Positions 8,056 to 38,669 of a stretch of 38,669 nucleotides of DNA are shown one piece after another. The position numbers and the translations under genes were made by a program. Source of the stretch: a bacterium (lineage in GTDB: Bacteria; Elusimicrobiota; Elusimicrobia; UBA1565; UBA9628); contig JAJZJF010000009.1 of assembly GCA_021810245.1 (NCBI GenBank), forward strand, positions 1 to 38,669, written 5' to 3'. A model generated the notes under the pieces. It made no database searches and was not told the DNA's origin. It saw only the letters and a program-made list of their open reading frames with translations. Position 1 is the stretch's first letter, and each line of letters begins with the position of its first letter.

Positions 8056-9243
8056 TCAGGGCGCCCGCCAATCCGGCATGACCCGAATCATAAAATCATT
8101 GAAAAGCGGAACCGTGAAAGCCGTATCGCCGTGAGCCGGGCTGTAGATCATTCCCTTGCCGATAAGCCCCGAGCGCAGCGGCGCGCTGGACTGAACTTTA
8201 ATGCCGAGGCGATCGGCAATCTCGCTGGAGCGATGCGCCCCCGGCCCCAATTCAGCCAAAGCTCTTAGATAGTCTTTTTCGCGCGGGGTCAAGCGGTCAA
8301 AGCGGACGCGAAAAAAGCTTCCATCGAGTTTTTTAACCGCTTCAACGTTGGCGCGCAGGATAACGCTCCTATTAATAGGCGACTCTTTCGCTAAATTCCA
8401 AGCCTGATATCCCCACTCTTGAAGGAAGTAGGGGTATCCCTGAGTCTGAAGCGCGATTTCCTTGAGCGCATCTTCCGCGAAGACGACGCCCTCCTTTTTC
8501 GCGGGGTCACGCAAAGCCGCCGCCGCATCTTTGGGCGAAAGCGGGCCAATCCGGGGAAATCGAAATAGTCGTTCCGCGTAAGATCTTGATCTTCCGGCCA
8601 AGCCGACAAGCTGGGGCAAACCCGCCGAGACAAGCGCCAGAGGCAATTGGCGCTGAGACACGCGGTGTATTGCCATGATCAGCGCGCCCATCTCTTTTTC
8701 ATTCAGATATTGGATTTCGTCTATAATGACGGCGACGGCTCTTTGTCTATCCTTGGCGGCTTCTCCCAAAGCGACAAAGAGTTCCGAAAGATCGGACTCC
8801 AAATTGCCCGAATCCGCCTTGCCCCTTTCAGGGTCAATCCCGAGTTCGACCCCGGTTTCTCCCAACTTAATCTTGAACGTCCCGATAAAACTCCGCAGAA
8901 TGCGCAATCCCAACTTCACCTTAGCGCTCACTTTCTCCATCCTGTCAAGTTCTATGAGCGCTCCCCGAAGCCCGGGGATAAGGAGTTCGGGAAGGAAACG
9001 ATCCTCCGAAATTTCGATCATCACGACGCAATATTTTTCAGCTTCGGCAATATCCTTGATGCGATTGAGCAAAACCGTTTTTCCGACGCCCCTTAATCCG
9101 ACAAGCATGAGGCTTTGCTCATAACGCCCGCGCTTGATCCTGCCAAGCGCAATAGCGGCCTCTTTGAGCAAATCATCGCGGCCAACGAGTTCCGGCGGCG
9201 GATTTCCCGCGCCTGGAGAAAATGGGTTTTGAAGCGGATCCAT
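8056..9243 (-). CDS. AAA+ ATPase, Orc1/AAA_16-like, with winged-helix C-terminus
   Basis: A 395-residue ATPase. After an N-terminal PFSPG...ELVGRDDLL box (typical of AAA_16/archaeal Orc-type ATPases) it has Walker A GLRGVGKT at 49-56, Walker B AVIIDEIQYL near 170 and a sensor-like LVSAGLPQL. A lid follows (GYPYFLQEWGYQAW), then a winged-helix region at about 310-380 (LTPREKDYLRALAELG, with EIADRLG) that could bind DNA. It differs from the DUF4143 family around it: there is no nuclease-like C-terminus. Such proteins are common and uncharacterised in bacteria. It is transcribed with, or just upstream of, the DUF4143 relic. A promoter is visible at 9262-9289. Precise function unknown. Confidence 0.85.
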   Translation of the reverse strand: MDPLQNPFSPGAGNPPPELVGRDDLLKEAAIALGRIKRGRYEQSLMLVGLRGVGKTVLLNRIKDIAEAEKYCVVMIEISEDRFLPELLIPGLRGALIELDRMEKVSAKVKLGLRILRSFIGTFKIKLGETGVELGIDPERGKADSGNLESDLSELFVALGEAAKDRQRAVAVIIDEIQYLNEKEMGALIMAIHRVSQRQLPLALVSAGLPQLVGLAGRSRSYAERLFRFPRIGPLSPKDAAAALRDPAKKEGVVFAEDALKEIALQTQGYPYFLQEWGYQAWNLAKESPINRSVILRANVEAVKKLDGSFFRVRFDRLTPREKDYLRALAELGPGAHRSSEIADRLGIKVQSSAPLRSGLIGKGMIYSPAHGDTAFTVPLFNDFMIRVMPDWRAP

Positions 9244-9261
9244 ATATAAGAAGTTTACCTA

Positions 9262-9289
9262 ATTATCTAGTGTTTATCAATATACTCAA
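9262..9289 (-). promoter_or_regulatory. sigma70-like promoter of the AAA_16 ATPase gene
   Basis: On the minus strand TTGAGT (9289-9284) and GATAAT (9267-9262) are separated by 16 bases. The predicted start of transcription is about 12 bases before the ATG at 9243. The segment is very AT-rich and has a GTTTAT/ATAAAC inverted repeat across it. Confidence 0.5.
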
Positions 9290-9393
9290 TAAACTTTCTA
9301 TAAACCTATTACGTAAACTGACGTTCCCCCATTTTTTAGGCCGTGGTCAATTGCTTATTTTTGGGGGGAGAAATGACGTTTGAGGCGCGGCGA

Positions 9394-10539
9394 TCACAAA
9401 AGGCGCAGAAACTCCCGCCACGGAATAAATTCGATTCCGCCATTGGCGTAAGGCCTGGGCGCGCGACAAACGCAAAAAGCGCGCGCGACATGGTGATCGT
9501 TTAAAAAACTGCGCAAACCGTGAAGCTCTCTTGACGAAGGCGCCGTCCCGGACTTGATTTCAATTGCCCAAACTTCCTGCCCAATCTCGATGATTAAGTC
9601 CACCTCGGTTCCGTCTCCGGTCCTAAAAAATGAGAGGCGGTATTCCCTCTCGCGATAGTCCAAAAGGCGCCGAGTCTCCAGTATCACCCAATGCTCGAAA
9701 GCCGCGCCAAAAGGAGGCGTGCCTTCAATCAACTCGGGCTCTAGGGAGCGGCGCAAGGCGGACACGACCCCGCCGTCAAAGAAGAAAAACTTCGGATGTT
9801 TGACCAGCTTGGCGCGCGGCGAACGGGCGTAAGGCTCGAGAAAAAAGCCAATCAAGGTGTCCTCCAAAATCTGAAAATAAGAGCGAACGGTTTTGGCGTC
9901 GATTCCCAATTCACGGGACAAGCCGGAGAAATGGAGCAACCGTCCGTTTTCAAATCCCGCCAGATCCAAAAAATGCGAGAAGGCGGGAGCGTTCCGAGTC
10001 AAAGCCTCCTGTTGGATTTCTTCTCTGAGATAAGTTTCGACGTAGCTGCGCAAAAGCCGAATTCGCGAGGAATAGTCCGGCTCCAAAATGATCCTTGGAA
10101 GGCTCCCAAAGCGCAAAACCGACTCCAGCGAAAACAAGTCCCCAAGTTCCTCGTGAGTCAGCGGGTGAAGCCTTAAAGTCACGGCGCGTCCGGCCAAAAG
10201 ATTGGCTCCCCCTCTCTTGAGCTTTCTCGCGCTGGAACCGGTTAATAAAAAGCGCGCGGCTTCGCGGCTTTCCATGATGGACTGGACGACATTGAGGATC
10301 TCCGGACAGCGCTGAACCTCGTCGATGACCACCAGCGGCCCCGCGCGATTAAGAGCCTGAACTTCTCTCTGAAGGATATCCGGGTTGCGGCTGTATCTCG
10401 AAAAATTTTCGTAGAGCAAAAGGTCTATGAATAAATCCGGACGGGTCTTCTCTTGAATGAGATGGGTTTTTCCGACCTGCCTCGGGCCAAGGAGAAACGC
10501 GGACTGATTGAGGGGAATTTTAAGAGTTCTAGGAATCAT
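9394..10539 (-). CDS. DUF4143-family AAA_14 ATPase
   Basis: A 381-residue member of the AAA_14-DUF4143 family: Walker A GPRQVGKT at 18-25, Walker B VVIDEVQRCPE near 70-80, and the sensor/arginine region LLTGSSARKLKRGGANLLAGRA. A helix-turn-helix-like segment follows (LSRELGIDAKTVRSYFQILED) and then a PD-(D/E)xK-like core with EVDLI and AIEIKSG near the C-terminus. The family is widespread in anaerobes and candidate phyla; its role is not established. It is divergent from the next ATPase gene, with a 320-base region between. A TATTAT box ends eight bases before the ATG; the AGGAG just before the start is too close to act as a ribosome-binding site, so translation is probably leaderless or nearly so. 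Confidence 0.9.
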   Translation of the reverse strand: MIPRTLKIPLNQSAFLLGPRQVGKTHLIQEKTRPDLFIDLLLYENFSRYSRNPDILQREVQALNRAGPLVVIDEVQRCPEILNVVQSIMESREAARFLLTGSSARKLKRGGANLLAGRAVTLRLHPLTHEELGDLFSLESVLRFGSLPRIILEPDYSSRIRLLRSYVETYLREEIQQEALTRNAPAFSHFLDLAGFENGRLLHFSGLSRELGIDAKTVRSYFQILEDTLIGFFLEPYARSPRAKLVKHPKFFFFDGGVVSALRRSLEPELIEGTPPFGAAFEHWVILETRRLLDYREREYRLSFFRTGDGTEVDLIIEIGQEVWAIEIKSGTAPSSRELHGLRSFLNDHHVARAFCVCRAPRPYANGGIEFIPWREFLRLL

Positions 10540-10547
10540 ACTCCTAA

Positions 10548-10577
10548 ATAATACGATATTTTAGGATTAAATTCCTA
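10548..10577 (-). promoter_or_regulatory. -10 box and inverted repeat upstream of the 9394-10539 ATPase
   Basis: On the minus strand TATTAT (10553-10548) ends eight bases before the start codon. Just upstream lies an inverted repeat TAGGA-TTAAAT-TCCTA (10562-10577), with a further CCTAAAT half-site nearer the gene (10543-10549). The arrangement could be an operator; short arms make this tentative. Confidence 0.4.
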
Positions 10578-10765
10578 TATTTTCGATATAAAGAAGACGA
10601 TCCAGCCTTCTCCAATTCAAGCTTTCGCGCTCCCCGTCGCGATCAATTCCATCGAGGCCCCCGTTTCCGGGAACTGAATTCAACCATTACGGGTTCGCTA
10701 AAGATACGCTGCGCCGTTTCGGCGGAGCTGCGGGCTGCGACTTTGCAATGCCTATCCTACCGCAG

Positions 10766-10806
10766 GTCTTCACTTTTTCAAAGTGTTGCAATAGCATATT
10801 GAACTT
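10766..10806. repeat. 41-base dispersed repeat, copy A
   Basis: Matches 18153-18193 at 38 of 41 positions in the same orientation. Read on the minus strand both copies begin a short frame, with codons for MLLQHFEKVKT here and MLMQQFQKVKT in copy B. Copy A contains the inverted repeat CACTTT-TTC-AAAGTG. The sequences flanking the two copies differ. Confidence 0.85.
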
Positions 10807-10823
10807 GCGGGATATTATTTGAC

Positions 10824-10858
10824 CTTGAATTATAGAAGTCTATATTCTATAATTCAAG
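10824..10858. promoter_or_regulatory. perfect palindrome forming a symmetric bidirectional promoter
   Basis: Two perfect 14-base arms, CTTGAATTATAGAA (10824-10837) and TTCTATAATTCAAG (10845-10858), flank a 7-base centre. Reading right, TTGAAT (10825-10830) and TATAAT (10848-10853) are 17 bases apart and point at the GTG at 10860, six bases beyond the -10. By symmetry the same TTGAAT-17-TATAAT promoter reads left toward the divergent ATPase gene. The palindrome could equally be an operator for a dimeric repressor or a hairpin. Confidence 0.75.
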
Positions 10859-10859
10859 A

Positions 10860-12032
10860 GTGATCCAGAGATCGGCTCGAGCGCGTCTGGCCTTTCTTAG
10901 ACGTATTTTCCCAATCGTCACGGTCATCGGTCCGCGGCAATGCGGGAAAACCACTCTCGTGCGTAGAGAACTTCCCAAGTGGCGCTACCTGGATTTGGAG
11001 AAGCCGCTGGACTGGAATATCCTGACCGAAGATCCCGAAGGCTTTCTCGCTGACAACCCAAAATCCCTTATTATTGATGAATCGCAAAGATACCCCGAGC
11101 TCTTTCCGCTATTAAGACACGTCGTAGACCTTGACCGAAAGCCCGGGCGTTTCGTTCTCACGGGCTCAGCTCAACCAAGAATGATCCGGCAAGTCAGCGA
11201 AAGCCTGGCGGGCCGCGTGGGAATACTCGAACTGACGCCTTTTACCGCGCAAGAGTTGTCCACGCGCCCCATATGGCTAAAACAACGCTGGTTCTGGGGC
11301 GGATTTCCTCCGCTCTATCAATTGAGAACTGCGGCGGAAAAAAGAGAATGGCTTGAGAGCTACATATCGACGTTTCTCTCCCAGGATTTACCGGGCCTTG
11401 GCGTCACGGTGGCCCCAACGCGCCTGCGGCGCTTCTGGACCATGGCCGCGCATCTCAATGGCCAGATACTCAGCCTGTCGGATCTGGCTCGCGCGATGGA
11501 CCTTTCTTATCACACGATCGCCCACTACCTCGACATACTCGAGGGAGCCTGCGCGATTCGCCGCCTTCAGCCCTACCATGCCAACATCGGAAAAAGACTC
11601 GTGAAAAGCCCTAAACTCTACATTCGGGATACAGGAATTCTTCATTCGCTCTTGGGCCTTCGCAGCCCGGCGGATATGGAAGGCTGGCCTGGCATTGGAG
11701 CTTCGTTTGAGGGTTTGGTGGTGGAGGAATTGTCCGCGCGTCTGGCGCTTGTTGGCGGCGCCGGCATGTTTTATTGGCGCACTCAATCCGGCGCGGAAGC
11801 CGATTTGATTTTGGAATCCGGCAGAAGGCGCCTGGCCATTGAGATTAAATTCGGGCATAGCCTTAATCCCAGGCGTTTGGCGGGCCTTAAAAGCTGCATG
11901 GCCTATCTTAAACTGCACAGAGGAGTCGTGATTTATGGCGGAAAAGAGCGCCTGACGCTCGGCCATGGAATCGAAGCGATCCCGTGGCGGGACATTGAAC
12001 GCGGCGGAAAGATTTGGCCCGGAGTGTGTTAA
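10860..12032 (+). CDS. DUF4143-family ATPase
   Basis: A 390-residue ATPase. Walker A GPRQCGKT is at 24-31 and Walker B LIIDESQRYPEL at about 70-81 (serine in place of the usual valine after DE), then VLTGSAQPRM and SLAGRVGILEL. A helix-turn-helix-like segment SLSDLARAMDLSYHTIAHYL lies near 207-226 and the nuclease-like core AEADLI...AIEIKFG near 313-333. It starts with GTG directly after the palindromic promoter, with no room for a ribosome-binding site, so a leaderless message is expected. The sequence is clearly diverged from its neighbours, so the island is not a recent tandem duplication. Family function unknown; ATP binding and a nuclease-like fold are inferred from motifs. Confidence 0.9.
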   Translation: MIQRSARARLAFLRRIFPIVTVIGPRQCGKTTLVRRELPKWRYLDLEKPLDWNILTEDPEGFLADNPKSLIIDESQRYPELFPLLRHVVDLDRKPGRFVLTGSAQPRMIRQVSESLAGRVGILELTPFTAQELSTRPIWLKQRWFWGGFPPLYQLRTAAEKREWLESYISTFLSQDLPGLGVTVAPTRLRRFWTMAAHLNGQILSLSDLARAMDLSYHTIAHYLDILEGACAIRRLQPYHANIGKRLVKSPKLYIRDTGILHSLLGLRSPADMEGWPGIGASFEGLVVEELSARLALVGGAGMFYWRTQSGAEADLILESGRRRLAIEIKFGHSLNPRRLAGLKSCMAYLKLHRGVVIYGGKERLTLGHGIEAIPWRDIERGGKIWPGVC

Positions 12033-12045
12033 TGCCGCCGGCTAT

Positions 12046-12104
12046 GACTTTTCAACGCCAATCCGATTAAAAGTCTTGACTTTTTAACGGGGGACTGATA
12101 CTCT
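12046..12104 (+). promoter_or_regulatory. promoter with GACTTTT inverted repeat upstream of the 12111 ATPase
   Basis: TTGACT (12076-12081) and TACTCT (12099-12104) are 17 bases apart; the -10 ends six bases before the ATG. The -35 lies in an inverted repeat AAAAGTC-TT-GACTTTT (12069-12084), and a third GACTTTT copy is at 12046-12052. This looks like an operator over the -35 box. Confidence 0.5.
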
Positions 12105-12110
12105 ATTATC

Positions 12111-13349
12111 ATGAAACGCCTCCTGGAAGACCTCTTGGATTTAGAGCATTTTTCCGTTTCCAGAAAAAACAAAATGGCTTTTGTCGCGGGGCCGAGACAA
12201 TGCGGAAAAACCACGCTCGCCCAAGCTCTTCAAAAAAAGCGGGGAACGGCGGAGCTTTACCGCAATTGGGATGACCTCTCTTTCCGCGCCGAGCTCGCCA
12301 AAAACCCATATGGCTTTATAGACGCCTACAGGACAATCCGCAAGCGAAAACCCTTGGCCGTTTTAGATGAAATCCATAAATTTCCCCGCTGGAAAACCTA
12401 TCTCAAGGGCCTCTGGGACACGCGCGGCGAGGGAACCGATATCATCGTCACCGGAAGCGGCCGCATGGATATTTATCAAAAAGGCGGAGACAGCTTATTA
12501 GGGCGCTACCATCAATATCGCCTGCACCCTCTCTCCGTTTCGGAGATCGCGGGAAAACGCTTTGACCCGGAAACGCATTCTCCCGAATCTATTCTCCAAT
12601 CTTTCGCCCAAAACCCGGCGCCGCCTAATTCTCAAACGCGGGAAGCCTTTGACGGGCTTCTCCTCTTTGGCGGATTTCCCGAACCGTTCATCGATCAAAG
12701 CCCCCGGAAACACAGGCTCTGGGTCAGAGAAAGACGGGAACGCCTGACCCGCGAAGATTTACGCGATCTCACCCGCATTCAAATGATATCCTCCATCGAG
12801 CAAATGGTGGAACTCCTCATTTTGCGAGTCGGGTCGCTCCTTTCATTGAATAATCTTCGCGAGGATCTCGGCGTCGCGCTTGATTCGACACGCCTCTGGA
12901 TGGAGCAATTGGAGCGGCTTTATTTCTGCTACCGCATTCGTCCCTACGCGGGAAAACTCGCCCGCTCGCTCCGCCGCGAGCCGAAACTCTATCTCTATGA
13001 TTGGTCTGAAGTGAAAGACGAAGGAGCGCGTTTTAAAAATTTGATCGCCTCGGCGCTCTTGCGCTGGAGCCATTTCACGGAAGATTGGGGCCAAACTCCC
13101 CTCGGTCTGCATTTCATCCGCGACAAGGAAAAGCGGGAAGTGGATTTTTTGCTGACCCTGGACAAAAAGCCCGCGCTTCTCATCGAAGCGAAGGTCGCGG
13201 ACTTAAACCCAAGCCCGCAGCTGCGGTATTTTTCGGAAAAACTCGGAAACATTCCGCGCATGGTCGTCGTCGCCCGATTGAATGAACCCGGGATTTCCAA
13301 CGGAACCTTGATTGTGCCGGCGGCCTCTTTTCTGGCGGCAATTCCGTAA
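12111..13349 (+). CDS. DUF4143-family ATPase, LDEIHK subtype
   Basis: A 412-residue ATPase: Walker A GPRQCGKT at 27-34, Walker B LAVLDEIHKFPRW at about 82-94, sensor IIVTGSGRMDIYQKGGDSLLGRY, then a helix-turn-helix-like LNNLREDLGVALDSTRLWMEQL and a C-terminal nuclease-like core (REVDFLLTLDK, LLIEAKVAD). The LDEIHK...W pattern groups it with the partial ATPase at the right edge of the window and apart from the IDEVQ type. The message is probably leaderless. It ends 112 bases from the convergent methyltransferase gene; no terminator with a T-run is seen in that gap. Confidence 0.9.
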   Translation: MKRLLEDLLDLEHFSVSRKNKMAFVAGPRQCGKTTLAQALQKKRGTAELYRNWDDLSFRAELAKNPYGFIDAYRTIRKRKPLAVLDEIHKFPRWKTYLKGLWDTRGEGTDIIVTGSGRMDIYQKGGDSLLGRYHQYRLHPLSVSEIAGKRFDPETHSPESILQSFAQNPAPPNSQTREAFDGLLLFGGFPEPFIDQSPRKHRLWVRERRERLTREDLRDLTRIQMISSIEQMVELLILRVGSLLSLNNLREDLGVALDSTRLWMEQLERLYFCYRIRPYAGKLARSLRREPKLYLYDWSEVKDEGARFKNLIASALLRWSHFTEDWGQTPLGLHFIRDKEKREVDFLLTLDKKPALLIEAKVADLNPSPQLRYFSEKLGNIPRMVVVARLNEPGISNGTLIVPAASFLAAIP

Positions 13350-21923: not shown

Positions 21924-24900
21924 CTATGGATGAAAGCCCCTCCTGGGCGCCGAAGATTCAAGCACTTTTTTTGTTGCCTCCAAAAAAGATCTCCCATATT
22001 TTAAATCGGGTTCTAGGTATGAACCCTCCGCCCATTCGTTCCAGGCATTGATAAACACCAGCCTCTCGTCTCCCTTAAATCTCCGCATCGTATAATGGAT
22101 ACTATTTTGAAGCCACTCCGCGTATTTTTCCGGAGAAGCGTCGTGAAAGATCACGGCATTCTTGCCATGCCTCGGAGTGTTGTCCCAGGCCAGCATCACG
22201 TCTTTATACCTCTTATAAGGAGTATCTTCTCGATCCGAATAATACCGGATGATTTTTGCATAGTCGAAAATTTTTCCTTGGAATTGAGGGCTGACATTTA
22301 ACTTATCAAGTTTATCATAAAGCAATTCGTCCGGAAGAATAAAAGTCGGGACCTCGTAAGAAGCGTCAAAGCCGATGTCATTGGGATTAGTGAAGGGATC
22401 AAAGCCTTCGCAACGCACAAGATAGATATCTCCAAACCCCGCTTTTCGGACCTCATTTCTCCAGGTCTCGGTAGTTGCTAGCGGATTCGGAAACAATTCC
22501 GTCCGGTAGACGAGCAACAAAGGCTTCCCGTCCACTCTGATATATCGGGGATCCTCAAAGGCGGGGAAAAGATGCCGGATAAAGTTCAGGTCGTCTTGGT
22601 GGGAGTGCTCCTGCGCAATCAGAATATCATTATGCATGCCGTCCCATCGTCGGGTCCAATTCTCATTTGCCCAGCAAAAACAGAAAGGAAGGTTCGGCTT
22701 CTTGGACCGCAACATATAATCTATCGGCTTATGAAGTAACCTTCTGCCTTGAAACCAATAGAGATAATAACAAAACCCTTCAATGCCATATTCCTTAGCA
22801 AGATCGGCCTGATGATCCATAACTTCAGGCACCCTTAAATCATAATGCCCCAAATCCCCAGGAAGACGCGGTTGGTATTGGCCATCATAAAAGGGGCGCG
22901 CCTTGGCGACATTGCGCCATTCCGTAAAACCTTTGCCCCAATGCTTATCGTTCTCGGGAATGGGGTGATATTGAGGCAAGTAAAACGCGATAAGACGCGG
23001 GTGTTTCAATCCCACTTCAACAGGTTGAGAAGAATTCGGCAATTTCGCATCAGGTAATTCCACGCTCAACGGATAGATTTCTTGGTCGCCTCCCTTGTGC
23101 GCCAATTGAGTTTCCAACCTTTTCATAACAGCTTGAAAAACGACATCAACGGGAATATCAGCTGCCGGACCCGCTTCATTGTATACTAAAGTAGCATTGC
23201 TCCCATCGGCATAGCCGCCTGTATACGGATTGTATTTCTTAAATTGATTGAATTGGCCCAAAAGGACCACTCCGGGAGTTTGGACTGCGTTTGCCAAGTG
23301 AGCTGGGCCGCTATCAACCCCGACAAAAAGAGCCCCACGTTTGATGACTTCAGCGGTTTCAAGCACAGAAAGGCGCCCACAAACGTTTATTTGGCCTTCC
23401 AATTCATGCAGAATGGGAACAAGGCCAACTTCTATGATTTTTAAAGCAGTTTTTTCCCGAATAAGAGCGGCCAATTCTTCCCATTTCCTAGGAGACCAAT
23501 CTTTGCTGACCTCGTTTGAAAAACAATGTAAAACGACAAATTCCTTGGGTAAATCCAAATGATCAACGTTTCTTCTCGCCTCATCTGGAATATAAACACG
23601 CGGCTGTTCGTCCAAGGGCTCAATGCCAGCGCCAATACAGAAAGACTTCAATAAACTCCCATGATTAAAATAATTGTCACCCGTGATGGAGATATCCCCT
23701 TGAAGCTTGCTGAGCGGGACACCACAGTCCTGGCAAATTCTGCCATTCACATGGAGGTCAACGACCTCATCAAAGACGCGATGATAAACCATTTTGATCC
23801 AGTCGGTCAGGCAATCAACGACGATGGCCTCGTCAATATAGGGATTATTCGAAATGATCTCACGGTAAGGGGCCTTCACGACCCAATAGAGATGTGCCTT
23901 TGGGTTTTTTGCCTTAAGGCGCCGCGCCACCGGTTCACAAGCGACAATGTCTCCCAAATGCTCAATGAGGCCAATACCAATGGTGTGGGATATATTTCGG
24001 GTTTTTGTTCTCGCTAGAAAGGATGTGGCTATGCCCACGGTTGCCCTTGGGACGTCTGCGGCCTTGCCAGCGCTAGGATTGTACAAACGCAGAAATTCCA
24101 TATGTATCTGATGCTTCGCCACAAGCGAATTTGAATCCATAGCGAGGCGCTTGAACGCCGCAATCAGCGGCGCAATCCCCTTCTTGCGCCAAACGAAATA
24201 AACCTCTCGGGCAAAGGCCCTATGGCGGAGGGGATTGCTAATCACCTTCTTAAGGTAAGGCCTTGCAATCTGATAGGCTGTCGCCAATTTTGATAGGTAT
24301 ACGATTTTAATATTGGAAATCTTAAAGCGACTTATGCTGTCAGCGGGATCTAAGCGCAATGCCACAAGACATTTTGGAAACGGTAAAACGGCCGATATCT
24401 TGCCCTGCGTCGGCATAGGTAGAAGAAAAGATCTTCCTTCGCTAAATCCATTGCCTTCATCCCAGTAGAGACGCGGGTGTCTCGGATTTTCCAGAAATTC
24501 AAGCTCAAATTCGATCTTCATCCAGCCGCCGCGTAAGCGAGACTTGCGGCGGGGGCAAAGCAGGAAACAAGGGTCGCTTCCCGTTGATTGATAGAGACAG
24601 GGTTGTTCTTCCCGCAGATGATGGATCGGCTGAGGTTCCAAATCAATACTTCCAGAGATTGCGAATAGAAATGCGCTTTGCGCTTTAAAAGTAAAATAAC
24701 GCCAACTTTTATATCCATGACGCAGCACTATTCCCAAAAGCCTTAACGAACGAGTCCAACGCCAGGATCTTGAGGAAAGAATCAAATTAAGTTCACGTTC
24801 TAGCCGCACAGACGTTTCGTGCAAAACCTTAATCTCACCATCCTTTTGCCCCAGGGCTTCCACTGATTGTTTAAGTTCACGTTCTAGCCCTTGGTTTTTC

Positions 24901-26195
24901 TCGGCAGTCTTTACTAACTCTTGCTCAAACCGCACGGAAGCTTCGCGCAAAACTTTAATTTCACCATCCTTTTGCCCCAGGGCTTCCACTGATTGTTTAA
25001 GTTCACGTTCTAGCCGCACAGACGTTTCGTGCAAAACCTTAATCTCACCATCCTTTTGCCCCAGGGCTTCCACTGATTGTTTAAGTTCACGTTCTAGCCC
25101 TTGGTTTTTCTCGGCAGTCTTTACTAACTCTTGCTCAAGTCGCGCAGACATTTCGCGTAATCTCTCAAATTGCTCTGTATAGGCAACTATATGCTGCTCG
25201 CGCTCCCCAGCGACCTCCTGCGTCATTTCAAGCTTTACCTGCAATTGGTCAATTGACGATTGCATTGAAACTAATGCTGGTGATGGATAATTTACGCCTA
25301 CAACCTTAGCTGGAGACGTGTGAACTAATATCTCGCCTGAGTACTGCGGTTTATGCAATAGCATAAGTGCCAAATCATCTGCGGTGTTAATCTCTGGCAA
25401 AGGACGTCCTTGACGATCAAAAAGCCGCTTGGCATCCTTCCAATTGATTTTTTCCAACTTTTTCAGAGATATCATCAGCAGACCGAATTCTTTTGCCCCA
25501 CTAAAAATATCATCTGAATTACCAAAGTAGTTGTCACGATTATAGGCCGAACTCAACAAACCAAACGATTGATAGCCGCGTGAACGGCAAAACTCCAACA
25601 ACTGAATTCCTGCTGATAGAGAATTGCATTCGGCAAATATAGTTGGTTGCCAGTTGGATATGGATTCCCGCGCTCCATCAATCACTTGACGCTCCATGCC
25701 CTCAACATCAATCTTAATAAAATCGATTTTCCCCAACTTCAATTGGTCAATGGTAGTTATTGGGCATTTATAACCCTTGCCAGTTTCTATGGCCGAAGGA
25801 CAATCTATCAGAGAAAAACTCCCCAGGCTTCCCTTGACCTTCAGATCAATGCTCGGCAATAAAATTTTTCCTTGGCGGTCGGACAGGGCGACATTCAGCG
25901 CGGAAATATTGTTGATTTTATTGGCCGAAATATTTCGAGATAAGAAATCAAAGATTTCCCGGCGCGGTTCAACAGCGTAGACAGAGCCCTTGTTTCCCAC
26001 GAAGCGTGAAAAAGCGAGCGCGTGCGTCCCAATATAGGCTCCAATATCCAGAACTTGATCTCCTTGAGCAATAAACGAGGACAGGACCTCCAGTTCATCT
26101 TCTGCCCATTCACCGTATATAGTTAATGACCGCGATAGGATCTCATCCGAATCGATCACGTCCATTGTTCCGTATCGAGTCTTAACAATGCTCAT
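21924..26195 (-). CDS. FkbM methyltransferase - coiled coil - GT9 - WbsX fusion protein
   Basis: A 1423-residue multidomain protein, apparently cytoplasmic. About 40-240: FkbM-type methyltransferase (VLDIGAYIGTHAL, YAVEPRREIF, IDFIKIDVEGME). About 300-475: a long coiled coil made of near-identical 28- and 14-residue units, then SRSWRWTRSLR. About 535-635: a small beta-rich region. About 730-1000: GT9/heptosyltransferase-like domain (IGLIEHLGDIVACEPV, VLHCFSNEVSKDWSPRKW, FVGVDSGPAHLANAV). About 1060-1415: WbsX/GH99-like domain (RLIAFYLPQYHPIPEND, GIEGFCYYLYWFQGRRLL, NENWTRRWDG). It overlaps wzt by ATGA, so the two are coupled. It may be a chain-modifying and chain-ending enzyme for the glycan exported by Wzm/Wzt. 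Domain calls are firm; the joint role is inference. Confidence 0.9.
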   Translation of the reverse strand: MSIVKTRYGTMDVIDSDEILSRSLTIYGEWAEDELEVLSSFIAQGDQVLDIGAYIGTHALAFSRFVGNKGSVYAVEPRREIFDFLSRNISANKINNISALNVALSDRQGKILLPSIDLKVKGSLGSFSLIDCPSAIETGKGYKCPITTIDQLKLGKIDFIKIDVEGMERQVIDGARESISNWQPTIFAECNSLSAGIQLLEFCRSRGYQSFGLLSSAYNRDNYFGNSDDIFSGAKEFGLLMISLKKLEKINWKDAKRLFDRQGRPLPEINTADDLALMLLHKPQYSGEILVHTSPAKVVGVNYPSPALVSMQSSIDQLQVKLEMTQEVAGEREQHIVAYTEQFERLREMSARLEQELVKTAEKNQGLERELKQSVEALGQKDGEIKVLHETSVRLERELKQSVEALGQKDGEIKVLREASVRFEQELVKTAEKNQGLERELKQSVEALGQKDGEIKVLHETSVRLERELNLILSSRSWRWTRSLRLLGIVLRHGYKSWRYFTFKAQSAFLFAISGSIDLEPQPIHHLREEQPCLYQSTGSDPCFLLCPRRKSRLRGGWMKIEFELEFLENPRHPRLYWDEGNGFSEGRSFLLPMPTQGKISAVLPFPKCLVALRLDPADSISRFKISNIKIVYLSKLATAYQIARPYLKKVISNPLRHRAFAREVYFVWRKKGIAPLIAAFKRLAMDSNSLVAKHQIHMEFLRLYNPSAGKAADVPRATVGIATSFLARTKTRNISHTIGIGLIEHLGDIVACEPVARRLKAKNPKAHLYWVVKAPYREIISNNPYIDEAIVVDCLTDWIKMVYHRVFDEVVDLHVNGRICQDCGVPLSKLQGDISITGDNYFNHGSLLKSFCIGAGIEPLDEQPRVYIPDEARRNVDHLDLPKEFVVLHCFSNEVSKDWSPRKWEELAALIREKTALKIIEVGLVPILHELEGQINVCGRLSVLETAEVIKRGALFVGVDSGPAHLANAVQTPGVVLLGQFNQFKKYNPYTGGYADGSNATLVYNEAGPAADIPVDVVFQAVMKRLETQLAHKGGDQEIYPLSVELPDAKLPNSSQPVEVGLKHPRLIAFYLPQYHPIPENDKHWGKGFTEWRNVAKARPFYDGQYQPRLPGDLGHYDLRVPEVMDHQADLAKEYGIEGFCYYLYWFQGRRLLHKPIDYMLRSKKPNLPFCFCWANENWTRRWDGMHNDILIAQEHSHQDDLNFIRHLFPAFEDPRYIRVDGKPLLLVYRTELFPNPLATTETWRNEVRKAGFGDIYLVRCEGFDPFTNPNDIGFDASYEVPTFILPDELLYDKLDKLNVSPQFQGKIFDYAKIIRYYSDREDTPYKRYKDVMLAWDNTPRHGKNAVIFHDASPEKYAEWLQNSIHYTMRRFKGDERLVFINAWNEWAEGSYLEPDLKYGRSFLEATKKVLESSAPRRGFHP
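24789..25137. repeat. in-frame tandem repeats in the coiled-coil region, heptad multiples
   Basis: Near-identical DNA units of 84 bases (28 residues, four heptads; KQSVEALGQKDGEIKVL core) in three copies and 42 bases (14 residues, two heptads; VKTAEKNQGLEREL) in two copies, in the order 42-84-84-42-84 along the gene. All unit lengths are multiples of 21, so gain or loss keeps both reading frame and heptad phase. Confidence 0.95.
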
Positions 26196-33071: not shown

Positions 33072-34223
33072 TCAGCGGATAATTCCTCCATCCCAAAGCA
33101 TTCTCAGAAATTCGCCAAGAGGCAAAATGGGAATTGTTCCATCTCCTTGAGGCCTTACCCCCCCAAAGACTCCATATGCGCGCACGCGTTGAGCGCCCAA
33201 TTCTTCGATCAACCTGGATAATCCGCGCTGAAACGCCCCTCGCCATGAGGCGGAAGATTTAACTTTCAAAGCGACATAACCGCGCGAATCTTCAACGAGA
33301 AAATCGACCTCGACGCCGTCATATGAACTCCAATAATGAACCGGGTAGTTGAGCCCCGAATAGGATAAATACGCGCGCAGTTCATTGAGAATAAGCGTTT
33401 CAAGCAGAAATCCCGTTTCTTCTTCCAAGGGCGGATAAGGAAGTCTTCCCGAGAGAGCCCGACAGACCCCGGCGTCGAAGAAATAAAATTTCGGATGACG
33501 CACTTGTTTTGTGGCGCGCTTGAGCTTCCAAGAAGGCAGCCACGAGCCGATCAATGTATCCACCAATATCTCAAAATAGGCTTCGACGGTCTGGCGGGCG
33601 ACCTGCGCATCACGCGCAATGGAGGTCATGTTCGTGACTTGGGCGTTTTGCCGCGCCGCGACTTCGAGAAATCGGGCAAAAGATCCGATATTGCGCGTGA
33701 GGGCCTCGGCTTTCACTTCTTCCTGCAAGTAACTTGTCGCGTAGGTTCGCAGATAGTCTTTTGGGTTTTCGAGGTTAAAAGCCATGGGCAGCATTCCCCA
33801 TTCTATCGGCGGGCCCTCAAGACCGATTTTAAAATCAACCTCGGAGGATACGAGCGGGAAAAAAGGCTTCATAACAGCCCTTCCGGCGAGAAGATTGGCC
33901 GCTCCGCGTTTGAGCTTTCGCGCGCTCGATCCGGAAAGAAGAAATTTTAAGCGTTTTTCCTCAATTAACCTTTGAACTTCATCAAGCACGGCCGGAGCTT
34001 TTTGAACTTCGTCGATAATGACCCAGGAGCCCGGCGCGAGATTTCTCGTTTCTTGATAGAGACTATGAGGATGGCGGTTAAAGCGCAAGGCTTCTTCCGT
34101 GTTGAGAAGGTCATAACTGACGGCATCTTTAAAATTCGCGCGAATCCATGTCGATTTCCCTGTTCCCCGCGGCCCCATGAGAAAGGCGGAATGAGTCGGC
34201 TTCTTAATCAGGCGTGTAAACAT
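33072..34223 (-). CDS. DUF4143-family ATPase with altered nuclease-like motif
   Basis: A 383-residue ATPase: Walker A GPRGTGKS at 17-24, Walker B WVIIDEVQKAP at about 67-77, LLSGSSARKLKRGAANLLAGRA, a helix-turn-helix-like MTSIARDAQVARQTVEAYFEIL and the C-terminal EVDFLVEDSRG. Where relatives have (I/V)E(I/V)K, it reads ALKVKSS, so the glutamate of the ExK motif is replaced by lysine. Nuclease-like activity, if the family has any, should be impaired. The frame is open to 34283, but the family start is the ATG at 34223. It lies inside the glycan locus, between intact GT4 and the scrap of its duplicate. Confidence 0.9.
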   Translation of the reverse strand: MFTRLIKKPTHSAFLMGPRGTGKSTWIRANFKDAVSYDLLNTEEALRFNRHPHSLYQETRNLAPGSWVIIDEVQKAPAVLDEVQRLIEEKRLKFLLSGSSARKLKRGAANLLAGRAVMKPFFPLVSSEVDFKIGLEGPPIEWGMLPMAFNLENPKDYLRTYATSYLQEEVKAEALTRNIGSFARFLEVAARQNAQVTNMTSIARDAQVARQTVEAYFEILVDTLIGSWLPSWKLKRATKQVRHPKFYFFDAGVCRALSGRLPYPPLEEETGFLLETLILNELRAYLSYSGLNYPVHYWSSYDGVEVDFLVEDSRGYVALKVKSSASWRGAFQRGLSRLIEELGAQRVRAYGVFGGVRPQGDGTIPILPLGEFLRMLWDGGIIR

Positions 34224-34356
34224 AGTTGGCGAATTTCCGGTAAATATTACAACTATTGTATAAAATAAGCAGAAATTCCGCATGCTTCGCTGACATTCCC
34301 AAGGAGGGCATCAAGTCAGCCAATCACAGACAATCGCGATTTTAGGAGATTTCATT

Positions 34357-37577: not shown

Positions 37578-38669
37578 TTATGCCTCTAATTGAGCCAGCC
37601 AGGCCCCGGCCGGAATAATAGAGATTGGTCCGGAGCGTCTTTCCTGACGGGCGTTATGAACTAATTGGACGGCAGAAATCTTCGGGTGACGTTCGCTGAA
37701 ATATTTCAAGTTAGGCGCCGGGCCATCATCGGAGAGTTTAACTTCGATGAAATGGGTCACCTGGTCCTTTTCGGCGAGAACAAAATCAACTTCCTTGCCT
37801 TCTTTGGTGCGAATATAGTGAAGGGAAACGTCCTTGCCTCTTGCGTCCTGTAAATAGTGGACATGTTTAAGGAGACAAGCCGCCACAGTATTTTCCAAAC
37901 GAACGCCTTCATCGGCGTCTATGTAGCCGCTGTCGTAAAAATAGATCTTGGGTTCCTTGAGCAGGGACCGGGCTATGTTCTTGTGAAACGGGCGCACGGT
38001 AAAGACGACATGAAGACTCTCGAGGATTTCGACGTATTTGCGAACGGTGTTGGCGGCGACCTCAAGATCGCGGGCCAACGAAGCATATGAGAGAGGCGCG
38101 CCCACGCGCGCGCGCAGCATTTCCACAAGCATTCGCAAAGCGCGCATCTCGCCGATGCGGCTGAAATCCAAAACATCTTCCCTGATGATGTCCGTGTAAT
38201 ACTGCCTGCGCCAGCGGTTGGCGTAATCTTCGGAGCCGGAGAGAAACGGCTCCGGAAATCCGCCAAGCTTGTTGAGCGCAGAAACCGCCTCGTAGGGAGG
38301 AGTCACACTTGAGAGTTCTTTAACTGAAAGTGGATGAAGCCGATAGAGAAAATAGCGCCCGGCAAGAGAATCTCCGGCTTGCCTAAAAGTGTCGAGACGC
38401 GCGCTGCCAGTGACCAAAAACGACTGTCGCGCAGGTCTGGTGTCGAAAGCGCCTTTTAGGAAATTCTTCCACCCCTTCATCTTATGGATTTCATCTAAAA
38501 CGACCAACTCCGCGTTGAGCGGCCAGGAGCGGCCTCGGATGATTTGAATATCCGAGATGTCATCGTTATTGAGGTAGACCGATTCCTTGAACTCGCGCCG
38601 CAAATCTTTCGCGAGGTAGGTTTTGCCTACCTGGCGCGGGCCAGTCACAAAAACCATTTTGTTTAGCAG
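37578..38669 (-). CDS. DUF4143-family ATPase, LDEIHK subtype, 5' end outside window
   Basis: At least 359 residues from an internal methionine at 38657. The frame is open to the right edge, and relatives have about 20 residues before this point (the similar protein at 12111 has KMAFVAGPRQCGKT where this has KMVFVTGPRQVGKT), so the real start is outside. Walker B is LVVLDEIHKMKGW, then FLVTGSARLDTFRQAGDSLAGRY, a helix-turn-helix-like YASLARDLEVAANTVRKYVEILES and the nuclease-like EVDFVLAEKD with FIEVKLSDD, with the ExK motif intact. It is 126 bases downstream of, and on the same strand as, an unidentified region before the GT9-GT2 gene. Confidence 0.9.
   Translation of the reverse strand: MLNKMVFVTGPRQVGKTYLAKDLRREFKESVYLNNDDISDIQIIRGRSWPLNAELVVLDEIHKMKGWKNFLKGAFDTRPARQSFLVTGSARLDTFRQAGDSLAGRYFLYRLHPLSVKELSSVTPPYEAVSALNKLGGFPEPFLSGSEDYANRWRRQYYTDIIREDVLDFSRIGEMRALRMLVEMLRARVGAPLSYASLARDLEVAANTVRKYVEILESLHVVFTVRPFHKNIARSLLKEPKIYFYDSGYIDADEGVRLENTVAACLLKHVHYLQDARGKDVSLHYIRTKEGKEVDFVLAEKDQVTHFIEVKLSDDGPAPNLKYFSERHPKISAVQLVHNARQERRSGPISIIPAGAWLAQLEA

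Follow-up and report, generated by a model that had tools for sequence, protein, structure and literature searches.

Why a perfect palindrome that reads as a promoter on both strands should lie between two divergent ATPase genes is the question raised by positions 10824 to 10858 of the window, the whole stretch of 38,669 nucleotides analysed here, which makes up one of the 152 contigs in a 2.03-Mb assembly from a bacterium of the Elusimicrobiota. The initial annotation took the site for a promoter working in both directions and added that its symmetry could also accommodate a dimeric repressor covering both promoters. The repressor idea is favoured by the comparison of sequences, in which the operator bases track residues of the encoded protein. 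The palindrome is very probably the operator of gene 10860-12032, to which a dimer of the gene's own product would bind, autoregulating the gene and most likely repressing it. The features concerned are collected in Table 1.

Table 1. Features of the palindrome, the gene downstream and the neighbouring candidate sites (offsets are counted in bp from the dyad)
Feature	Position	Strand	Details	Basis
Putative operator palindrome	10824-10858		arms 10824-10837 and 10845-10858, dyad centre 10841	inverted-repeat analysis
Outer box, left half-site	10824-10829	+	CTTGAA, offsets 17 to 12; mirror 10853-10858	site alignment
-35-like TTGAAT	10825-10830	+	predicted promoter of gene 10860-12032; register class 19	
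Mirror-image promoter	10829-10857	-	TATAAT is the complement of 10829-10834, TTGAAT of 10852-10857	
Inner box, left half-site	10833-10837	+	TAGAA, offsets 8 to 4; mirror 10845-10849	
-10-like TATAAT	10848-10853	+	6 nt before GTG 10860; predicted leaderless	
AAA_14 ATPase-wHTH-DUF4143 gene (PDC-S01)	10860-12032	+	390 aa, start GTG	domain and profile matches
Winged HTH	11415-11567	+	residues 186-236	AlphaFold helices and strand
Y217 and H218 codons	11508-11513	+	inner-box specificity residues	residue-base tests
DUF4143 loop, residues 308-312 (TQSGA)	11781-11795	+	outer-box specificity	residue-base tests
Candidate own operator of the divergent DUF4143 gene 9394-10539	10539-10569	-	TAATCCTAAAATATCGTATTATTTAGGAGTA, centred 15 bp before ATG	
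Weak candidate operator of the third DUF4143 gene, 12111-13349	12063-12090	+	CCGATTAAAAGTCTTGACTTTTTAACGG	p 0.05

The palindrome and the encoded protein

The palindrome reads CTTGAATTATAGAA-GTCTATA-TTCTATAATTCAAG, with arms that are complementary at 14 of 14 positions and 7 nt apart, and no other inverted repeat in the whole 38,669-base window has arms of at least 11 nt with a loop of at most 20. The earlier view that perfect 14-base arms lie beyond chance was borne out, as the base composition gives an analytic expectation of 0.003 repeats per window with arms of at least 14 and a loop of at most 20, and the palindrome score was not reached in any of 2,000 dinucleotide shuffles made from the surrounding 220 bp. 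The coordinates likewise confirm TTGAAT and TATAAT with a spacer of 17 bp on both strands, the symmetry itself supplying the minus-strand copy, and domain annotation agrees that the flanking genes are divergent and both of the AAA_14-DUF4143 type. An identical palindrome is found in a same-genus genome (L016).

The AlphaFold model of the product of 10860-12032 (mean pLDDT 88.6) comprises an ATPase, a wHTH-like part and a C-terminal domain, and the predicted helices 186-198, 206-213 and 217-229 with strand 233-236 are read as a winged HTH. Across 16 homologues, Walker A, D73-E74, E284, D315, E328 and K330 vary little or not at all, and the C-terminal E284, D315, E328 and K330 would make up a sequence pattern as in PD-(D/E)XK nucleases. 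The PDLC04790 profile (PADLOC PDC-S01) matches the gene with an E value of 2e-97, and the protein has the domain order of that family, with a P-loop ATPase ahead of a PD-(D/E)XK-type domain in which acidic and Lys residues are conserved. A PDB sequence search with the window protein returned no relative; the solved structures closest to the model are the archaeal AAA+ ATPases SSO1545 (2FNA) and PABY2304 (2QEN), which are its nearest folds, yet with a TM-score of just ~0.47, and the next structural matches include STAND proteins and the nuclease Cdn1.

PDC-S01 profiles also match the genes at 9394, 12111, 33072 and 37578, and the genome holds 13 DUF4143 genes, five of them on the window contig. 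The five PDC-S01/DUF4143 genes of the window lie within 8056-13349, 33072-34283 and 37578-38657 and flank a polysaccharide/glycosyltransferase cluster. Positions 21924-26195 of the window encode a 1,423-aa protein in which FkbM methyltransferase, GT9-like and WbsX glycosyltransferase domains are fused. An AAA_16 ATPase is encoded beside the DUF4143 genes at 8056-9243.

Palindromes across the family

Homologues were collected in rounds (119 from the own and related genomes, 86 from GTDB species of many phyla, 270 with paralogues, and two held-out sets), giving a total of 379 unique family genes from many bacterial phyla, with archaeal homologues outside the sample. For each gene, the 190 nt before Walker A were scanned for the best palindrome, which was set against dinucleotide-shuffled versions of that sequence. 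The initial annotation had proposed looking for the palindrome upstream of DUF4143 genes in relatives, and this search found palindromes of gene-specific sequence, with 141 of the 379 genes (~37%) reaching the shuffle minimum of p <= 1/61 and 33-41% doing so in each round; significance was reached by 2.3-2.5% of in-gene controls and, by a slightly looser cut, by 6.5% of 216 other genes in their upstream regions. A score of at least 9 was attained by 137 of the 379 family genes (36%), and by 9 of the 216 control genes, which are other genes from related loci (odds ratio 13, p 3e-21). The 190-bp scan gave no clear palindrome in ~40% of family genes, some of which may be operon-internal, have misread starts or carry imperfect sites. 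A palindrome over the gene's own promoter, conserved in relatives, is the pattern expected of autoregulation.

In 76 type A sites, pairing amounts to 86-96% at offsets 4-8 and 12-16 and is weaker at 9-11, figures that have to be judged by their excess over shuffles since the sites were picked for palindromy. The arm bases vary from gene to gene in these sites while pairing holds, so the two arms covary. The consensus half-site is CC(T/A)TG(A/C)AA(A/T)T with a gene-specific inner box after it, and the family palindromes, compared as sequences, do not represent one copied repeat. The generic outer-box pattern with a spacer of 15 N had three matches in 295 genomes, two of which lay directly upstream of DUF4143 genes.

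Several further observations concern the distribution of the family. Paralogues in the own genome carry strong and differing palindromes upstream of other DUF4143 genes, one on contig C35 (L012, TGTTTTTATTACATTTAATGTAATAAAAACA, 14/14 pairs) and one on contig C27 (L014, CATGTAATTTTTTGC...GCAAAAAATTACATG). Some genomes hold ~30 family matches (37 in G083, 30 in G076, 29 in G050 and 28 in G051), far above expectation for a single-purpose system. A full consensus palindrome lies near a contig end at 477-513 of contig C28 of genome G109 (L460), in a 2.0-kb locus with no detected DUF4143 ORF. In Thermus thermophilus HB8, TTH_RS10120 on pTT27 (L398) has TTGCTT-17-TAAATT 7 nt before its ATG and a palindrome that, judged by eye, is imperfect; the HB27 relative matches it over residues 76-387 only. 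Family members also occur on plasmids and some viral contigs. Twelve viral matches to the outer box were treated as chance because they mostly had no paired inner box and no DUF4143 gene nearby.

Position of the palindromes relative to the promoter

The distances from dyad to start codon in family genes cluster at 15, 18-20, 31 and 38 nt. A gap of 6 nt separates the best -10 hexamer from the start codon in 11 of the 19 register-19 genes and 10 of the 15 register-31 genes, and both registers look like leaderless promoters in these sequences. The palindrome spans -35 to +1 in register 19, to which the window belongs, and is centred near -35 in register 31 (for example L161). For the plus-strand gene of the window, the proposed promoter with a transcript start at or next to the GTG fits the sequence, as the -10 ends 6 nt before that codon. 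DUF4143 genes family-wide (L111, L161 and L097, for example) are apparently leaderless, with a -10 ending 6-7 nt before the start and often a good TTGAC -35.

Residues that predict the operator bases

The inner box was compared with ~340 protein columns in 120 genes, using pairs of less than 55% identity, and was best explained by Y217 (z 13.9) and H218 (z 13.1), the next column reaching 6.7. These residues are the first of the recognition helix predicted by the model. In a leave-homologues-out prediction, in which homologues of at least 45% identity were dropped, the top of ~5,400 residue-base combinations were 217 with offset 7 and 218 with offset 6, that is, neighbouring residues with neighbouring bases. 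At residue 217, H goes with G (28.5/30), D with C, Y with A, and S, V or G with T; at residue 218, P goes with A (28.5/30), K with G, H with G (10/10) and D with C. A region-level partial Mantel correlation singled out no protein region, whereas the column-level test did single out columns.

The inner-box rule was fixed before the 72 genes of the first test were fetched, among which 13 viral loci had already been named and were unread. In this first held-out set 83% of 39 predictions were correct, while shuffled operators gave 35% with a maximum of 67% in 5,000. The base at offset 7 was predicted correctly from residue 217 in 89% and 91% of cases in the two held-out sets vs 30-35% with shuffled operators, baselines that are random with respect to relatedness, kinship being partly addressed by a comparison within 42-90% identity.

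In 149 genes, the outer box tracks the DUF4143 loop just before D315. Residue 309 pairs with offset 13 (H with A, 46/52; A with C, 10.5/12) and residue 310 with offset 16 (Q or N with A; A or S with T), and the further partners are 312 for offset 17 and 308 for offset 14. These rules were fixed before the second test, which used 17 further genes of less than 85% identity to the earlier proteins. All six rules beat shuffles (p 0.0005-0.04) in this set: 217 with 91% (p 0.0005) and 218 with 68% (0.03) for the inner box, and 309 with 77% (0.004), 310 with 61% (0.04), 312 with 71% (0.0025) and 308 with 82% (0.005) for the outer box.

When the comparison was limited to homologues 42-90% identical as a control for relatedness, the best column was 218 for offsets 5 and 6, 217 for 7, 207 for 8 and 310 for 16, and at offset 13 residue 309 was level with the near-invariant 246. 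At offsets 14, 15 and 17 other columns score equally or better, a signal that may stem from phylogeny. The outer-box rule therefore rests mainly on 309 and 310, and the links of 308 to offset 14 and of 312 to offset 17 are less certain. The window gene obeys both sets of rules, with Y217/H218 facing A7, G6 and A5, and T308, Q309, S310 and A312 facing G14, A13, T16 and C17 (Q309 goes with A or T at offset 13). Across the family the inner box tracks wHTH residues 217 and 218 and the outer box chiefly DUF4143 residues 309 and 310, and the specificity residues of the DNA-binding domain covary with the operator.

Proposed mechanism

The sequence comparisons support an operator that is gene-specific, follows its gene across phyla, overlaps a predicted leaderless promoter and has bases predictable from the protein. 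From these we infer dimeric binding, repression and a nucleotide- or phage-dependent switch, the dimer being suggested by the dyad symmetry. A dimer of the AAA+ ATPase-wHTH-DUF4143 protein would use two elements to read each half-site: its wHTH recognition helix (217-218, with 207) would contact the inner box, at 4-8 bp from the dyad, and its DUF4143 loop (308-312) the outer box, at 13-17 bp. As the operator covers -35 to +1 of the predicted leaderless promoter, binding of the protein should block RNA polymerase, and the gene would be autoregulated, most likely by repression; activation in place of repression is a less likely possibility. The repression could be lifted when the ATPase changes state or on infection.

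Alternative readings

It is possible, though rather doubtful, that the site is mainly a target of the PD-(D/E)XK domain, with the protein marking, sensing or cutting its cognate palindrome. That palindrome could lie in the protein's own gene or in an incoming element that carries a related gene, and regulation would then be secondary. The loop that appears to read the outer box lies beside the catalytic motif, the E, D and ExK residues are conserved, and the family is a candidate defence family with members on plasmids and some viral contigs; with a loop of a nuclease fold used for reading, the operator could also be a substrate. The placement of the site over a leaderless promoter at discrete registers is however operator-like, the window's operator was absent from the viral contigs in which it was sought, and a protein that cut the one copy of its site would do harm unless it were restrained. 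In a wider conjecture that we hold with low confidence, PDC-S01 proteins would be address-specific ATPase-nucleases whose wHTH and PD-(D/E)XK loop read a private palindrome, the address in the promoter acting as brake, sensor and possibly nuclease target. Lost operator occupancy, or an incoming element with the same address, would then trigger the protein, and the paralogues, dozens in a genome, would act as switches that each have their own address and are insulated from one another.

The initial proposal of a symmetric bidirectional promoter shared by the two divergent DUF4143 genes is very unlikely to describe the function of the site. In its favour, -35 and -10 elements with 17-bp spacers are present on both strands, the gene pair is divergent in the window and in the same-genus genome, and bidirectional promoters are described as common in bacteria (PMC12825309). 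The expected conserved divergent pair is not seen, however: in 48 palindromic genes with enough flank, neighbours within 400 nt comprised 29 on the same strand and 12 divergent. Palindromes are kept with same-strand neighbours (L017, L020 and L021), and in the first of these, an 85% identical homologue, the palindrome has 17/17 pairs and the upstream neighbour lies in the same orientation 63 nt away. Palindromy is also kept in relatives of other registers (for example with TTGACA central and the -10 outside), where the mirror arrangement is lost. Since a mirror promoter needs both -35 and -10 within the arms, the minus-strand copy in the window is read as a by-product of symmetry. The choice of bases moreover follows the protein, and the divergent gene has its own candidate site, TAATCCTAAAATATCGTATTATTTAGGAGTA, a palindrome that is weak alone (p = 0.13 against shuffles) in register 15, which is common to the relatives of its subfamily.

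A separate repressor is the usual ligand of a palindromic operator over a promoter, which would speak for an unrelated regulator that happens to control these genes. This is highly improbable here, as a single genome carries differing sites, and the sites agree in many phyla with the residues of the protein encoded downstream. A mobile repeat (MITE or REP), a terminator or an RNA hairpin, each suggested by a perfect inverted repeat in an intergenic position and the first named from the outset as what could overturn the initial reading, is hardly credible, given a single copy in the genome with up to 3 mismatches allowed where MITE or REP elements would be multi-copy, an A+T-rich stem followed by AGTGATCC instead of a G+C-rich stem and T tract, no Rfam match, an overlap with -35 to -10 that would place the palindrome outside the plus-strand transcript, and a register locked to the promoter.

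Comparison with known systems

PDC-S01 is said to rank fourth in frequency among prokaryotic defence systems and to join an ATPase to a PD-(D/E)XK domain, and most candidates of this kind still await experimental validation (PMC12988326). The window protein shares with this PADLOC candidate its domain content (AAA_14 and DUF4143) and an HMM match. No report of an operator, autoregulation or a recognition code was found for PDC-S01/DUF4143 in the literature covered, which consisted of full-text passages with subscription journals outside its scope and in which DUF4143 is named in one paper and PDC-S01 in three. The predicted binding sites and base-choosing residues make the function of these abundant candidates directly testable, and they offer a cognate DNA ligand of many members for binding, structural, ATPase and nuclease assays. 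The family would also provide a recognition code of natural origin that is divided between two domains, and it may help to explain why numerous related defence genes in a single genome do not cross-regulate one another.

In Thermus HB27, an AAA_14/DUF4143 gene is given as up 6.6-fold in plasmid-bearing, Argonaute-positive cells (PMC4406477), which shows just that such a gene can be regulated. Control of a defence gene by a DNA-binding protein is shared with BrxR, CapW (WYL domain) and RptR, which are separate repressors of defence loci (PMC9122601, PMC9122588 and PMC12255303). In contrast to these, the reader proposed for the window is the candidate effector ATPase itself, in a single-gene system with its own site for each paralogue. 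AbiE, a toxin-antitoxin system, is described as autoregulating by binding inverted repeats in its own promoter (PMC7319586); it consists of two genes with a dedicated antitoxin, whereas the window system is one three-domain protein, apparently with two reading domains. The symmetric bidirectional promoters of Warman et al. (PMC12825309) resemble the window site in being symmetric and promoter-like, whereas the symmetry in the window family extends over ~35 bp, is conserved while its sequence is gene-specific, and is independent of a divergent gene or a mirrored -10.
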